Origin: Rhodopseudomonas pseudopalustris
GTDB lineage: Bacteria > Pseudomonadota > Alphaproteobacteria > Rhizobiales > Xanthobacteraceae
Direction: 5' to 3'
Assembly (NCBI RefSeq): GCF_900110435.1
Contig: NZ_FODT01000001.1
Location: forward strand, 186,001 to 250,000
DNA: 64,000 nt
The notes under the pieces were generated by a model. That model was given only the letters and a program-made list of their open reading frames with translations, was not told the DNA's origin and did no database searches. Shown piece by piece: positions 8,770 through 19,550 of the stretch (position 1 is its first letter; each line of letters begins with the position of its first letter). Position numbers and translations under genes: made by a program.

Positions 8770-8844
8770 GCTGCCGTAGCTCAGTGGTAGAGCACTCCCT
8801 TGGTAAGGGAGAGGTCGTGAGTTCGATCCTCCCCGGCAGCACCA
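8770..8844 (+). tRNA. tRNA-Thr (anticodon GGT)
   Basis: A complete 75-nt cloverleaf with encoded CCA. The acceptor GCTGCCG pairs with CGGCAGC, and the anticodon stem CTCCC/GGGAG encloses TTGGTAA (anticodon GGT). Its 3' half, from the anticodon stem to CCA, is the left attachment site of the following island and is repeated at 19501-19550. Confidence 0.97.
8795..8844 (+). repeat. attL of the tRNA-Thr island (50-bp direct repeat)
   Basis: The 50 bases from the anticodon stem (CTCCCTTGG) to the CCA end of tRNA-Thr recur identically at 19501-19550. The bases flanking the two copies differ on both sides, which fixes the repeat boundaries. Integration left the tRNA gene whole on this side. Confidence 0.95.
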
Positions 8845-8969
8845 TTACACCCAATAAAATCAATGGGTTAGTCGGCAGCGCGGGCGCGGCTATAGATCTT
8901 CCCACATTGATTTCCCACACTGCTCACAGATTAGAATTCGCTGTCGCGGAGCAGCGAACGCGGCTTGAG

Positions 8970-9656
8970 CTATCGGATCAGAGGCCGACCGCGAATGGAT
9001 GTCGGCCCCGCCGCACCGATGATTGATCCGTCCGGATTAATGCCGGGATCAAGCCACTCCATTTGACTTAGCCCGGCGTTCAAACCCGCCTTGCCAAATC
9101 CGCCGAATAGATCGGCAAGCAGTTTGTTGCTGTCACCCGCGTGGCCTGCTGCGTCGAGTTCGAGCGCCTGCACCCCGGCCGAGCCCTTCTTGTAGCCGCC
9201 GATCTGGCCGAGCGTCCCGGCGTCGCGCGCCTGGCTCCGGCTGATCGTGCCTAGCAGATCGCCGAAGGACTGCAGCTTGCCGCGCGCGTCGCCCTGCTGC
9301 AGGCCGAACGCCTGGGCGATGGCCTGCTTGTTGTCGATCTCGCGGTTGACCACGTCGGACGACGATGCCGGCAAAGCGGTGCCGGGCAGCGCCGTGCCGC
9401 CGCCGACCGCCGACCGGTACATATCGGACAACTTCGTCGCCCGATCCGCGAGCAGCGTGCCGAAGCCCGCGTAGCGGTTGAGCGCCCCGCTGTTGATGCC
9501 GCTGGCTTCCATGTCGAGCGCCTGCTGCCGGGCGCGCTCGGCGCTGTTCACCCCCAGCCGCGCGTTGTTGACTTCGTCCTGCGCGGTGCCGGCGAACATG
9601 GACGACAGAAGCGTTGAGCCGGCGCCGGCGCCGGCCAGAAGAAGCGGAAGCATCAC
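8970..9656 (-). CDS. virion-associated-like protein (possible ejection/pilot protein)
   Basis: A 228-residue protein. A Gly/Ala-rich hydrophobic N-terminus (LLLAGAGAGSTLLSSMFAG) is followed by an Ala/Arg/Gln-rich helical stretch (NSAERARQQALDMEASGIN). The central and C-terminal parts are Gly/Ala rich, with LLGTISRSQARDAGTLGQIG and LLADLFGGFGKAGLNAG. This layout recalls minor virion or DNA-ejection proteins of tailed phages, which often begin with a hydrophobic Gly-rich helix and a DUF-like coiled region. That is an inference from style, not a recognised domain. It is the last gene before attL. Confidence 0.45.
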   Translation of the reverse strand: MMLPLLLAGAGAGSTLLSSMFAGTAQDEVNNARLGVNSAERARQQALDMEASGINSGALNRYAGFGTLLADRATKLSDMYRSAVGGGTALPGTALPASSSDVVNREIDNKQAIAQAFGLQQGDARGKLQSFGDLLGTISRSQARDAGTLGQIGGYKKGSAGVQALELDAAGHAGDSNKLLADLFGGFGKAGLNAGLSQMEWLDPGINPDGSIIGAAGPTSIRGRPLIR

Positions 9657-9662
9657 TAAACC

Positions 9663-10208
9663 TCAATGAACCGTGGCCTCCTGGTGAGGCGCGTGTTGAG
9701 TTGCGTTAAGCGAAGCGAGCATCGCGCGAAGCGGCGCGCCGCGCTTTTCGATGCGGTCCCTCAAGCAAAGAGCCTCGATCTCGACTTTAAGCAGCGCGAC
9801 GTGATCCAGATAATCCAACAACCGGTCCAGCGGTTCGCTGGCGGTCACCTGCTCGCTTGTCTTGCCGAGAACCGCGGCGATGCCCAGCGCGCCTGCAAGG
9901 CCAGTCACGCGCAGATCCCCGCGAAGCTTTCCAGTGAAGCGCTCCGCAAAGCCAGAACTGAGCGTGATGATTGAACCGCGTAGCCGACTAGCTACACCCT
10001 CTGAGACTTCGGCCATACCGGGGCGCTCGACGAGGTTCAGCAGGGTGCTCAGACCCCACAACACGTTGTCGATCATGACGTCTGGATCAAGCGCGGCAGT
10101 AAAGGCATCCGCCGCGGCCGATGCCATGTCATCGGCCGCCGCCTCTTGGCTGGCGCCGGGCCGCGCAGTCTGCTCAAAATTATCTTCTTGAATAAGGGCG
10201 TCGGTCAT
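9663..10208 (-). CDS. island protein of unknown function
   Basis: A 181-residue mostly alpha-helical protein with no recognised domain. The N-terminus is acidic and disordered-looking (EDNFEQTARPGASQEAAADD). The rest alternates amphipathic helices, such as DNVLWGLSTLLNLVERPGM and EPLDRLLDYLDHVALLKVEIEALCLRDRIEKRG. No membrane segment is seen. I start at the ATG at 10208; a longer frame to 10280 is open. It lies six bases upstream of the virion-like gene, so the two are probably co-transcribed. Confidence 0.6.
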   Translation of the reverse strand: MTDALIQEDNFEQTARPGASQEAAADDMASAAADAFTAALDPDVMIDNVLWGLSTLLNLVERPGMAEVSEGVASRLRGSIITLSSGFAERFTGKLRGDLRVTGLAGALGIAAVLGKTSEQVTASEPLDRLLDYLDHVALLKVEIEALCLRDRIEKRGAPLRAMLASLNATQHAPHQEATVH

Positions 10209-17514: not shown

Positions 17515-17949
17515 AGGCCTGTCCTCCTAGAACATTCTGGGGGTGTGAGAGCAGCCGCCAGGCAAATCTTCATGACAGGCAAATAGGCAAAGCGCGGCGC
17601 ATGTGAAGATCTAAATAGTTGCTGATGTTGTCAATAGAATACGTTTTCATCCACTTATGGCATACGTATGCCGCAGCTAACTGATTGGTAATGAAGAAAT
17701 AAGCAGTACGTGCAACACATAGGCCTTTTTGAACAGTGCGACCGGGCTCAAAGTCCGGCGCTTTCCAACAACGCAATGATGCTCAACGTCTTCACTAGCG
17801 CGCGGCCGCAGAGCCGGCGCATTCGAGCCGGTCTTCCGAGCCGCTCAATGCAGCGTGGCCAGCGTCGTGTCATTTCCATGCATTGGCAGCTGCTCAACCA
17901 TGTGGCGCGTCCGGCGCTACCGCGCGCCTCGGCAAGCCGGAAATTCCGT
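17515..17949. other. regulatory intergenic region of the island
   Basis: The 435 bases between the integrase stop and the replication operon are AT-richer than the neighbours. They should contain the promoter of the minus-strand operon starting at 17514, and hold the 14-bp palindrome at 17659. Short open frames here show no coding character. Confidence 0.5.
17659..17672. promoter_or_regulatory. 14-bp perfect palindrome upstream of the replication operon
   Basis: GGCATACGTATGCC is a perfect palindrome about 145 bases before the operon start, in an AT-rich stretch. It is a candidate operator for an island repressor. Its CATACGTATG core only loosely resembles the TGTATGTCA sites. Confidence 0.45.
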
Positions 17950-19323
17950 CTATTCGGCGGCCTGCAGCGTGGGGCGGCCGACGATCGAGATCGCGTGCCT
18001 GCGCGCAAGATCTTCCGTCATGTCGACGATATACGCCGAATAGTGTTCCTCGATCATCCGGATCGAAGTGTCGTGCAGTGCGGCGACGAGGCGGACCGGC
18101 AATCCGGCAATCAGGCCGCGCACGATCGAGCTGTGCCGGAAGGCGTACATGATCGTGTCGTCGAGGACGCCGGCCGCGGTGATCGTCTTTTCCCACATGT
18201 TCCGAACCTCGAAAGCAGGCCCCCATGGGCGGCGCCGATCCCTCGTCCATCCTTCCGCGCCGCCGACGCGCTTCATCACCCAACGCCTCAGCAGCGGCTC
18301 ATGGCCGCTGCGACCGATCAGGATCGGCCCGAGCCTCTCGACTACGTCGGCCGATACGGGAACGGCTGCAGGCGCCCGTGCGCGGCGCTTCCGGCCCTTG
18401 CGCGCCCCGGGCATCATGATCCTGGCGCGGTGGATCTGAACGTCGGCCACCGTCAGCCGGACGATCTGTGAATATCGTGCGCCGGTCGACGCAGCGATCA
18501 GCACCAGGTGGCCAAAATCGTCGTCGGTCTTGAACGCCGCTTCGACTAGATCGCAAACCTGCAGATCCGTAAGCAGCTGCATCCGGCCTTCGTCGAGGTC
18601 ATCGGGCTCTTTCGCCCTGGTTCTGGTGCCGGCCTTCACCTCGGCAGCAATGTGGCCAGGCAATTGGCGGCGGTATTTGTCGGTCGCGGCGTTCAGCGCC
18701 GCCCTGAGATCGTTCAGCAGGCGGTTGAGCGACCCGGTCGACAGCTTGGGCTCAACGTCAGGCGGTTGCCCGCCCTTGGTGTAGGTCCGCTTCAACTGAT
18801 CGAGCCAATCATCGATCAGCTTCGATGTGAGGTGCGAGAGTTTCACCCGACCGAGAGGACAGTCGGCGGGCAAGTGCAGCAAAAGATGCGAAGCCGAGCA
18901 TTTCCCACCGGTGGCTACCCGGTGGCGTCGTTCCGAATAGGTCTCGACCACAGCGCGAACCGTCGGGACGCTCTTGCCGTCCTCGGTACCTTTGGTGGCC
19001 TCGGCGACAGCGGCCTGACGTTTGCTCCAATCCAGAGCCGCGGCAACGGCCGCCGGATAGCTCAGTGCGCCGTCGACCGCACCGTCGTCGTCGGCTGGGC
19101 CGAGACGCTCTTCGGCGCGCTCCCCGTCGATCACCACCTTCACAACCCAAACGCCGCCCCGCGGCCCTTTCCTATAGCCGAGCGAAACACCGCCGCGACC
19201 ACCGCCAACGCCGTGCCAGTACGGGTTCTTCCGTGGATACAGCTTCGATCGCTTGGCGGCCGTATCGATCGAGCGCAGCTTAGACGCCGATCCAGGGGCG
19301 GCAGCCTCGTTTCGCTCGACCAT
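17950..19323 (-). CDS. int: tyrosine-type site-specific integrase
   Basis: A 457-residue phage-type integrase. The C-terminal catalytic domain has the first Arg in STGARYSQIVRLTVAD, HRARIMMPGARKGRKR with the conserved Lys/beta-hairpin region, FRHSSIVRGL in the box II position, and the nucleophile in EEHYSAYI. The N-terminal part contains an arm-binding/SAM-like domain. I start at the ATG at 19323 (MVERNEA); the frame is open to 19389. It lies about 180 bases from attR, as expected for an integrase that inserts the element into tRNA-Thr. Confidence 0.92.
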   Translation of the reverse strand: MVERNEAAAPGSASKLRSIDTAAKRSKLYPRKNPYWHGVGGGRGGVSLGYRKGPRGGVWVVKVVIDGERAEERLGPADDDGAVDGALSYPAAVAAALDWSKRQAAVAEATKGTEDGKSVPTVRAVVETYSERRHRVATGGKCSASHLLLHLPADCPLGRVKLSHLTSKLIDDWLDQLKRTYTKGGQPPDVEPKLSTGSLNRLLNDLRAALNAATDKYRRQLPGHIAAEVKAGTRTRAKEPDDLDEGRMQLLTDLQVCDLVEAAFKTDDDFGHLVLIAASTGARYSQIVRLTVADVQIHRARIMMPGARKGRKRRARAPAAVPVSADVVERLGPILIGRSGHEPLLRRWVMKRVGGAEGWTRDRRRPWGPAFEVRNMWEKTITAAGVLDDTIMYAFRHSSIVRGLIAGLPVRLVAALHDTSIRMIEEHYSAYIVDMTEDLARRHAISIVGRPTLQAAE

Positions 19324-19500
19324 GATATCTTCCCACAGAGCGCCCCACACAGAGGGGCAGGAATGCCGGTGAAGGGCACGGACAATCATAGGGAAGTAAT
19401 CAACGAGCGAAAAGCTCTATTTTACAGGTGCTTATAGGGTTTATAGACATCATGGACATGCGTAAACCTCAACAGCAAAACAAGCGACCTGAGCGTGTAT

Positions 19501-19550
19501 CTCCCTTGGTAAGGGAGAGGTCGTGAGTTCGATCCTCCCCGGCAGCACCA
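19501..19550 (+). repeat. attR of the tRNA-Thr island (50-bp direct repeat)
   Basis: This is an exact copy of the last 50 bases of tRNA-Thr (8795-8844) and marks the right end of the island. The bases before it (GCGTGTAT) and after it (GCGCATT) differ from the attL flanks. The chromosomal sequence that followed tRNA-Thr before insertion continues here. Confidence 0.95.

Follow-up and report, generated by a model that had tools for sequence, protein, structure and literature searches.

Is the 10.7-kb island beside a threonine transfer RNA (tRNA-Thr) gene of Rhodopseudomonas pseudopalustris a phage satellite, a prophage worn down by deletion, or something else? The island occupies positions 8795-19550 of a 64,000-nucleotide (nt) stretch of DNA ("the window": RefSeq assembly GCF_900110435.1, contig NZ_FODT01000001.1, positions 186,001 to 250,000), and a sequence-only reading of the window had proposed that it belongs to an undescribed satellite family of Rhodopseudomonas and Bradyrhizobium phages. 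The proposal of such a family is supported here by the recurrence of the same plan in 19 elements, which a helper phage would mobilise. The window element is probably an integrative phage satellite of a Hyphomicrobiales family, with the full life cycle proposed below. At about even chances, the family would borrow the shell of its helper while supplying its own entry machinery and a chimeric small terminase (TerS), in which a zinc-finger-like protein with an HGG motif (the HGG protein) replaces the helix-turn-helix (HTH) domain.

Boundaries and integration site

The exact 50-bp tRNA-Thr repeats that had been reported around the 10.7-kb element are confirmed at 8795-8844 and 19501-19550 (both plus strand). 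The left copy, taken as the attachment core, is the 3' part of an intact tRNA-Thr(ggt) gene recognised by ARAGORN (8770-8844, plus strand); the right copy is a partial tRNA-Thr fragment beside the integrase gene. A repeat of this length is well beyond background: the next-longest exact repeat (counting pairs separated by 3 kb or more within the window's first 30 kb) is 27 bp and lies inside a duplicated amidase. In G199, a genome of the same genus, the left flank with its tRNA and the right flank adjoin, with ~150 bp between the matched parts. This empty site and the exact tRNA repeats together identify the 10.7 kb as the inserted unit.

The same tRNA is occupied differently in three other genomes of the genus (G028, G067 and G231, with ~20, 13.5 and 38 kb between the matched parts), and for this reason can be called an integration hotspot. 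Hidden Markov models (HMMs) made from the satellites found a distant prim-pol gene and no HGG gene in the G028 insert, and nothing in the G067 insert; both are left out of the family count below. The G028 insert (L118, contig C39, ~128.7-148.5 kb), a ~20-kb element, perhaps represents another island family.

A recurrent gene plan

From its right end, the window element encodes on the minus strand an integrase, an excisionase-like protein, g221, a replication protein with Prim-Pol, PriCT_2 and AAA_25 domains ("prim-pol"), iterons, the HGG protein, g119, g96, a resolvase, g205 and g228; a divergent HTH_17 regulator and g250 are on the plus strand. Overlapping HGG profile searches, pooled, gave near-full-length HGG proteins in 19 elements from 19 genomes or records (the window and 18 others), and prim-pol, HGG and g119 co-occur in all 19. 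HGG elements were present at E < 1e-25 in 10 of 397 genomes surveyed across the order and 7 of 391 across the family; the class survey (385 genomes) recovered one, the window's own genome (1e-20), and the other 15 genomes that the family survey covers in the genus carry none. Matches kept as near full length numbered 6 of 47 in GTDB, 1 of 11 in IMG/VR, 10 of 14 among the order genomes and 7 of 19 among the family genomes, the dropped rows matching part of the HGG profile, mostly a short HGG motif. Of the six GTDB loci, four share their genome with a survey match (L051 is G720, by position), giving the union of 19. Named hosts include Tardiphaga, Bradyrhizobium, Methylobacterium and Aureimonas: the family is spread in Hyphomicrobiales, so that the earlier proposal holds for the family but was too narrow in its hosts.

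The common gene order is prim-pol, HGG, g119 and then virion-type genes. Local HMM annotation found prim-pol in all 19 fetched stretches, excisionase-type matches in 15 and resolvase-type open reading frames (ORFs) in 16; HGG in L054 and g119 in L053, overlooked by the script where ORFs overlap, are both present on inspection. The integrase is on the prim-pol side in 12 of the 19. None was found near G427, G526, G507 or G566, that of G666 is at the opposite end, G513 carries extra integrases, and those near G074 and V96 may belong to adjoining elements. The annotated span is 9.8-18 kb for 17 elements, the limits of G074 and V96 having been set by hand. Two relatives are bounded by exact repeats, of 48 bp at tRNA-Val in G185 (a 14.5-kb unit) and of 52 bp at tRNA-Glu in G601 (14.7 kb). 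The family HMMs include members of the elements themselves; first recognition was independent, by blastp or HMM from phage sequences or earlier HMMs, except that V96, G666 and small g205-type matches were recognised only with later family HMMs. That the HGG elements constitute a phage-satellite family is well supported and very probable.

An apparent two-part small terminase

TerS proteins have an N-terminal HTH for DNA and a C-terminal part for the large terminase (TerL). Two adjacent genes of the window element appear to share these roles, and here the sequence-only reading, which had noted an HGG-motif protein with a small-terminase-like gene, was right. The HGG protein (13240-13836, minus strand; the ORF is open to 14043, and homologues begin near 13836) is the putative DNA-recognition half of the terminase, and scores below the cut-off against NCBIfam HGG_STG (22.2 bits, cut-off 29). 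The other, g119 (12884-13243, minus strand), appears to be a small terminase without the N-terminal HTH domain. As a single sequence it has no significant match in Pfam, PHROGs or NCBIfam (best PHROG, a head protein, E 0.29); its family profile matches phage TerS in hhalign (probability 97.7, E 1.7e-12) and, among PDB sequences, 6w7t, a "small terminase subunit" (3.7e-5, its residues 74-140), and 7joq (0.0023). In IMG/VR, the single g119 protein had no match, and the family profile is too variable for scanning.

Homology to TerS is confined to the part past the HTH. A prophage on contig C20 of the same genome ("C20") has a 157-amino-acid (aa) TerS whose PHROG small-terminase matches are within its first 65 residues (5.7e-5 and 6e-5). 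In 18 of 18 scripted alignments, the g119 match begins only at TerS position 51-65 of 158; the window g119 aligns to positions 55-136 of 158, and the L053 g119, outside this set, is included in alignment A5. The HGG protein carries a C, C, C, H-G-G pattern that is invariant in nine aligned rows. In 14 of the 17 pairs measured the two genes share 4 nt (one other pair has a 12-nt gap, and one a 49-nt overlap if the longest ORF is taken), and in G427 HGG and the HTH-less TerS are fused as one 307-aa protein (L159, 5565-6488). Some phages also have HGG proteins: two of six scanned are "terminase small subunit" by PHROGs (3.5e-39 and 3.9e-58). Dropped HGG rows were inspected in 8 of 10 IMG/VR and 6 of 41 GTDB neighbourhoods; among the 8 IMG/VR phages viewed, the HGG gene overlaps a downstream TerL gene in five unrelated ones (L097-L101), is two ORFs ahead of TerL in L102 and L103, and is not beside it in L104. 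The simplest reading is that HGG and g119 are apparently a two-part, re-targeted TerS, with HGG replacing the lost HTH. On balance, the pair seems likely to redirect packaging.

Putative entry genes without a recognised virion core

Of the virion genes that the sequence-only reading had reported missing (capsid, portal, tail and TerL), none is significantly matched among 12 element proteins, of which the resolvase and g250 were scanned with Pfam and the other 10 with PHROGs; the reading overlooked g228 (8970-9656, minus strand), whose homologue in Rhizobium phage RHph_N65 ("N65") is the virion-module gene before that of the injection protein. Nor do HMMs for the TerL, presumed portal and capsid of C20/N65 or V96 type match in any of the 19 elements, the V96 matches belonging to an adjoining prophage; other capsid types are less well excluded, through scans of larger unknown ORFs (10 in one set, and some others). 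PHROGs confirmed the V96 TerL and capsid, and matched the V96 "portal" to head-tail adaptor families. The sole virion-structural match within the element blocks scanned is a weak one, to a 660-aa protein of G295 (tail 1.4e-5, head/packaging 1.7e-4).

The window's g228 is 80% identical over 197 aa to a 229-aa protein of the C20 prophage (126811-127500), and 42% identical (2e-26) to N65 EVC08_009, the gene ahead of its "putative injection protein". It has no functional annotation besides position, and was not found on the plasmids searched. At least one homologue of this presumptive DNA-ejection cassette is present in 17 of the 19 elements, on the far side of HGG-g119 from prim-pol: g228-like genes in 4, ~480-aa injection-protein-like genes in 9, ~1000-aa genes in 6 and ~670-aa genes in 8. 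The ~1000-aa gene is the counterpart of the last virion-module gene of C20, whose protein had no INPHARED match, and the ~670-aa gene that of the N65 gene after the injection protein (41% identical). Profile alignment of these last two families covers only 34 columns, so that they are treated as two flavours and not as proven homologues. Distant relatives of the ~670-aa family matched the PHROG "DNA ejection protein" (phrog_26400) in 4 of 10 scanned; the other six gave one transglycosylase/endolysin set, one family of unknown function, three without a match and one taken up below. Two INPHARED records label such relatives "DNA injection protein". That these are ejection proteins is suggested by the way N65 is annotated, by their position at the close of the virion module and by the phrog_26400 matches. 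As a T7 gp14 type, g228 was rejected; it also has no similarity to a 170-aa gp14-like protein of V96, which itself had no INPHARED match.

L051 and G678, the two elements without ejection genes, have tail-fibre-like genes instead. That of L051 matches the N-terminal part of the two C20 fibre proteins, which PHROGs call tail proteins (3.7e-79 and 3.4e-20); that of G678 (933 aa) was recognised by HMM only (5e-21), its PHROG match being to a family of unknown function only. Each of the 19 elements retains, by homology, a cell-entry-type gene of one kind or the other.

Between G542 and G437, the ~670-aa and ~480-aa genes have crude ratios of nonsynonymous to synonymous substitution (dN/dS) of 0.08 and 0.24, g119 one of 0.07 and prim-pol one of 0.29: the ejection and terminase genes are under purifying selection in this pair. 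For g228 of the window against that of C20 the ratio is ~0.27. It is plausible, at roughly one chance in two, that the ejection proteins are used in helper particles.

One other entry cassette, in G295 (L042/L044, contig C14, 21169-27833), has injection-like and ~1000-aa genes followed by the 660-aa protein, with weak SASA-esterase and receptor-binding matches, and may hold ejection and receptor-binding parts together.

Related phages and alternative explanations

The C20 prophage (~87-132 kb of its contig) is related to N65, and a 21.8-kb stretch of it is 100% identical to IMG/VR UViG_2671180228_000005 (46.7 kb). It has TerL (phrog_38, 2.5e-89), capsid (phrog_9953, 3.8e-31) and tail genes and a virion module; the "portal" label in C20 and N65 is given by position after TerL, and had no PHROG match. 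C20 is collinear with the window element (the order being integrase, prim-pol and TerS, with the ejection genes last), and over 619 aa the two prim-pol proteins are 71% identical. In the prim-pol tree, N65 is sister to the G237 satellite, and C20 and L035 fall within a clade of the window element, L051, G678, G295 and G566. In the g228 tree the window copy groups with C20 and phage L168; G237 is next to this group and apart from N65.

The window prim-pol (14187-16592, minus strand; Pfam Prim-Pol 1.9e-8, AAA_25 7.5e-34, with PriCT_2) and the GCAAAG iteron array (14000-14155, minus strand; 9 copies in 500 bp 3' of the primase), a putative replication origin, are both as previously described. In the corresponding 500 bp there are 7 copies in L051, 10 in G678, 6 in G295 and 7 in G566; C20 and L035 have none at the origin site and have other repeats there, in what by eye is the same layout. 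From the two trees and the iteron counts, replication modules have moved between satellites and N65-like phages, with origin specificity diverging afterwards. The 117- and 114-aa ORFs between primase and HGG were rejected as genes, and are probably iteron DNA.

How much of this could be explained without a functional satellite? One possibility is that the element is a true satellite whose ejection genes are passenger DNA from phages, with no role in the particle. The window prim-pol and g228 both fall beside C20, as though acquired together, and some copies of the ~670-aa gene are partial (195 aa in G237, 346 aa in G666). However, ejection genes are present in 17 of 19 elements, always on the same side of HGG-g119 and under purifying selection in the tested pair, and the two exceptions carry another entry-type gene. 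In G237, moreover, prim-pol groups with N65 and g228 with the window and C20: having different nearest phages, the modules do not simply travel together. The passenger explanation is accordingly rather unlikely.

Another possibility is that the element is a shrunken prophage, a deletion derivative of an N65-like prophage consisting of its replication end and some structural scrap, with no transfer of its own. The sequence-only reading had set against its own proposal the scenario of full prophages with the same backbone, of which this copy would be a random deletion; C20 comes close to this, and for that reason more elements were sought. Part of the scenario is borne out: there are full prophages whose replication and virion genes are related to these, the gene order is collinear, prim-pol and g228 are 71 and 80% identical to those of C20, and the prim-pol tree has the phages N65, C20 and L035 nested within the satellites. 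However, the HGG gene was found neither in C20 and N65 (by HMM) nor in INPHARED (by tblastn), and the C20 TerS retains the N-terminal part that matches TerS families. The same HGG and HTH-less TerS plan recurs in 19 elements, none with the tested TerL, presumed portal or capsid types, which makes a random deletion unlikely for the window copy, and ejection and terminase genes are under purifying selection between two satellites. As an account of the present element, a shrunken prophage is quite improbable; that the lineage started long ago as a prophage deletion is compatible with these observations, and likely.

A defence island, in which dominant-negative ejection proteins and a TerS fragment poison incoming helper virions, would fit both a g119 without DNA-binding domain, as expected of a dominant-negative TerS, and the frequent interference of satellites with their helpers, but is very improbable for an element that has an origin, primase, integrase and excisionase-like genes of its own, as would suit a mobile element, whose HGG partner and G427 fusion suggest DNA targeting rather than mere poisoning, and in which PADLOC found no match among the seven window proteins scanned.

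Several observations weigh against the satellite reading itself. For one of the ten scanned relatives of the ~670-aa family, the match was to "major head protein" and not to an ejection protein, g228 and the ~480-aa protein have no similarity to T7 gp14 and gp15, and the g228 and ~1000-aa profiles found no useful PDB match. The HGG protein evolves fast (dN/dS 0.46 between G542 and G437, 0.50 between the window and L051), and in bacterial genomes five of six inspected loci with a short HGG motif have no adjoining terminase, L078 having TerL close by. In G074, 51-bp repeats bound 37.6 kb that include portal and head-tail adaptor genes (884-888 kb); these lie beyond the HGG block, and the likely explanation is that a second element adjoins the first in tandem. 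The only full-length HGG match in IMG/VR is in a record with an adjoining prophage, and for that reason gives no proof of packaging. Finally, the C20 TerL and presumed portal have no homologues in the genomes of G237, G185, G295, G074 and L053, and L051 has elsewhere in its genome only a 24% identical TerL, and no portal.

A possible satellite and helper in tandem is present in the L096/G298 record, where a full podovirus-like prophage (TerL, head-tail adaptor/portal, capsid and tail by PHROGs) lies beside tRNA-Ser, with an HGG satellite on the other side.

Proposed life cycle and known satellites

For the satellite reading, the life cycle may be pictured as follows. The integrase and excisionase-like proteins would excise the element at tRNA-Thr, and the Prim-Pol/AAA protein would replicate it from iterons of its own specificity. 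The HGG protein would recognise satellite DNA, and g119, keeping the TerS part that oligomerises and meets TerL, would with it steer the TerL of an N65-like helper onto that DNA, to fill helper capsids. The satellite would make its own entry-acting virion protein or proteins, to be placed in the particle: g228 in the window element, and larger ejection sets or tail fibres in its relatives.

The general features of satellites are present: the element is integrated, has no recognisable capsid, portal or TerL, and has retained genes of replication and packaging type. What known satellites contribute are capsid-size factors, TerS or entire capsids. In Staphylococcus aureus pathogenicity islands and phage-inducible chromosomal islands (SaPI/PICI) the satellite's own TerS redirects packaging (PMC10690885). 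Capsid-forming PICIs (cf-PICIs) bring capsid, portal, connectors and terminases (same source) and, by a title in a reference list, take tails. In PMC10803314, phage-inducible chromosomal minimalist islands (PICMI) have an integrase, an AlpA-type HTH and a primase without a capsid remodelling gene, the primase being DUF3987/DUF5906, with Fis.

Like SaPI/PICI, which carry integrase, AlpA/excisionase-type HTH and primase, the window element has these three and a TerS-like gene. Its TerS homology is confined to the part after the HTH, and some phage HGG proteins are TerS; it differs in the splitting of TerS into HGG and an HTH-less part, and in its ejection or fibre-like genes. No capsid-size redirection gene was matched by PHROGs or Pfam among the window proteins, and such genes can be unrecognisable. 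P4-like satellites have a primase-type replication protein, tRNA integration, a borrowed virion and the markers Sid, Psu and delta, none of which was matched among the window proteins scanned (Pfam, PHROGs); the window element apparently packages via its own TerS parts, not cos. Like cf-PICIs it brings some virion parts, but with the labour divided in reverse: the family has no recognised capsid, portal, connectors or terminase set of its own, lacking capsid, portal and TerL, and keeps entry proteins. It shares with PICMI the integrase, AlpA-type HTH, primase and absence of a recognisable capsid remodelling gene, and differs in its Prim-Pol/PriCT_2/AAA_25 primase and its terminase-like and ejection-module genes; Fis had no Pfam match among 10 window proteins (g205 and g228 being outside that scan). 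With the N65-like phages it has in common prim-pol, the TerS C-terminal part, the g228/ejection genes and, by eye, the origin layout of C20. Unlike the window element, these are complete phages (48.7 kb; 46.7 kb) that encode TerL, a capsid and a TerS of full length, and no HGG; HMMs from C20 and N65 found no TerL, major capsid protein or presumed portal in the element.

Searches of the open-licence PMC literature (subscription papers and preprints being outside this scope) found no description of a satellite carrying ejection genes, nor of a satellite family in Hyphomicrobiales. Within that literature, an ejection-protein satellite, if real, would be a new way of dividing a virion between two genomes: helper capsids would be given satellite-specified delivery, and the satellite could become independent of its helper in entry and in the choice of host. 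The pair of HGG and HTH-less TerS would be a natural domain swap that separates choice of DNA from contact with TerL, and is directly testable.

Other genes of the element and the window

The tyrosine integrase (17950-19389, minus strand) and the excisionase-like proteins named in the sequence-only reading are both present. The integrase matches phrog_1 "integrase" (2.5e-22), is 55% identical to that of L051 and scores under the cut-off against Pfam Phage_integrase. The divergent HTH_17/AlpA-type regulator or excisionase (12514-12819, plus strand) matches Pfam HTH_17 (8.1e-8) and the phrog_66 excisionase (6.4e-6), with 62% identity over 74 aa to C20 87696-87995; g111 (17179-17514, minus strand) is excisionase-like by position and HMM family, with no significant PHROG or Pfam match. 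An ORF of 86 aa (17748-18008) that overlaps the integrase gene at its end has a weak excisionase HMM score (8e-5); since the corresponding region holds two or three excisionase-like genes in L051 and G185, it may be an additional copy in decay.

Among the remaining genes, g221 (16517-17182, minus strand) is conserved in 4 of the 19 elements (the window, L051, G678 and G237). An ORF, g96 (11957-12247, minus strand), is weakly similar to C20 88669-88884, and the serine resolvase/invertase (11225-11764, minus strand) matches Pfam Resolvase (2.2e-38). The ORF g250 (10332-11084, plus strand), listed as cargo, had no match in Pfam, NCBIfam or PADLOC. Just upstream of the ejection genes is g205 (9663-10280, minus strand; family EJ290/g205), 33% identical to its G237 homologue over 148 aa; the wider g205 family is weak, its HMM having been built partly from these members.

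Outside the element, paralogous amidase-like genes (19633-21033 and 27755-29161) lie 8.1 kb apart, with exact shared stretches of up to 27 bp. A region of lower GC (0.49-0.63) at ~33-47 kb, perhaps a second, conjugative or mobilisable island, includes a 960-aa ORF (40921-43803) that by eye is TraA/MobF-type relaxase-like. Proteins resembling, by eye, a Mn transporter, a cation-efflux protein and a heavy-metal P-type ATPase are encoded at 52050-60656, a possible metal-resistance island.

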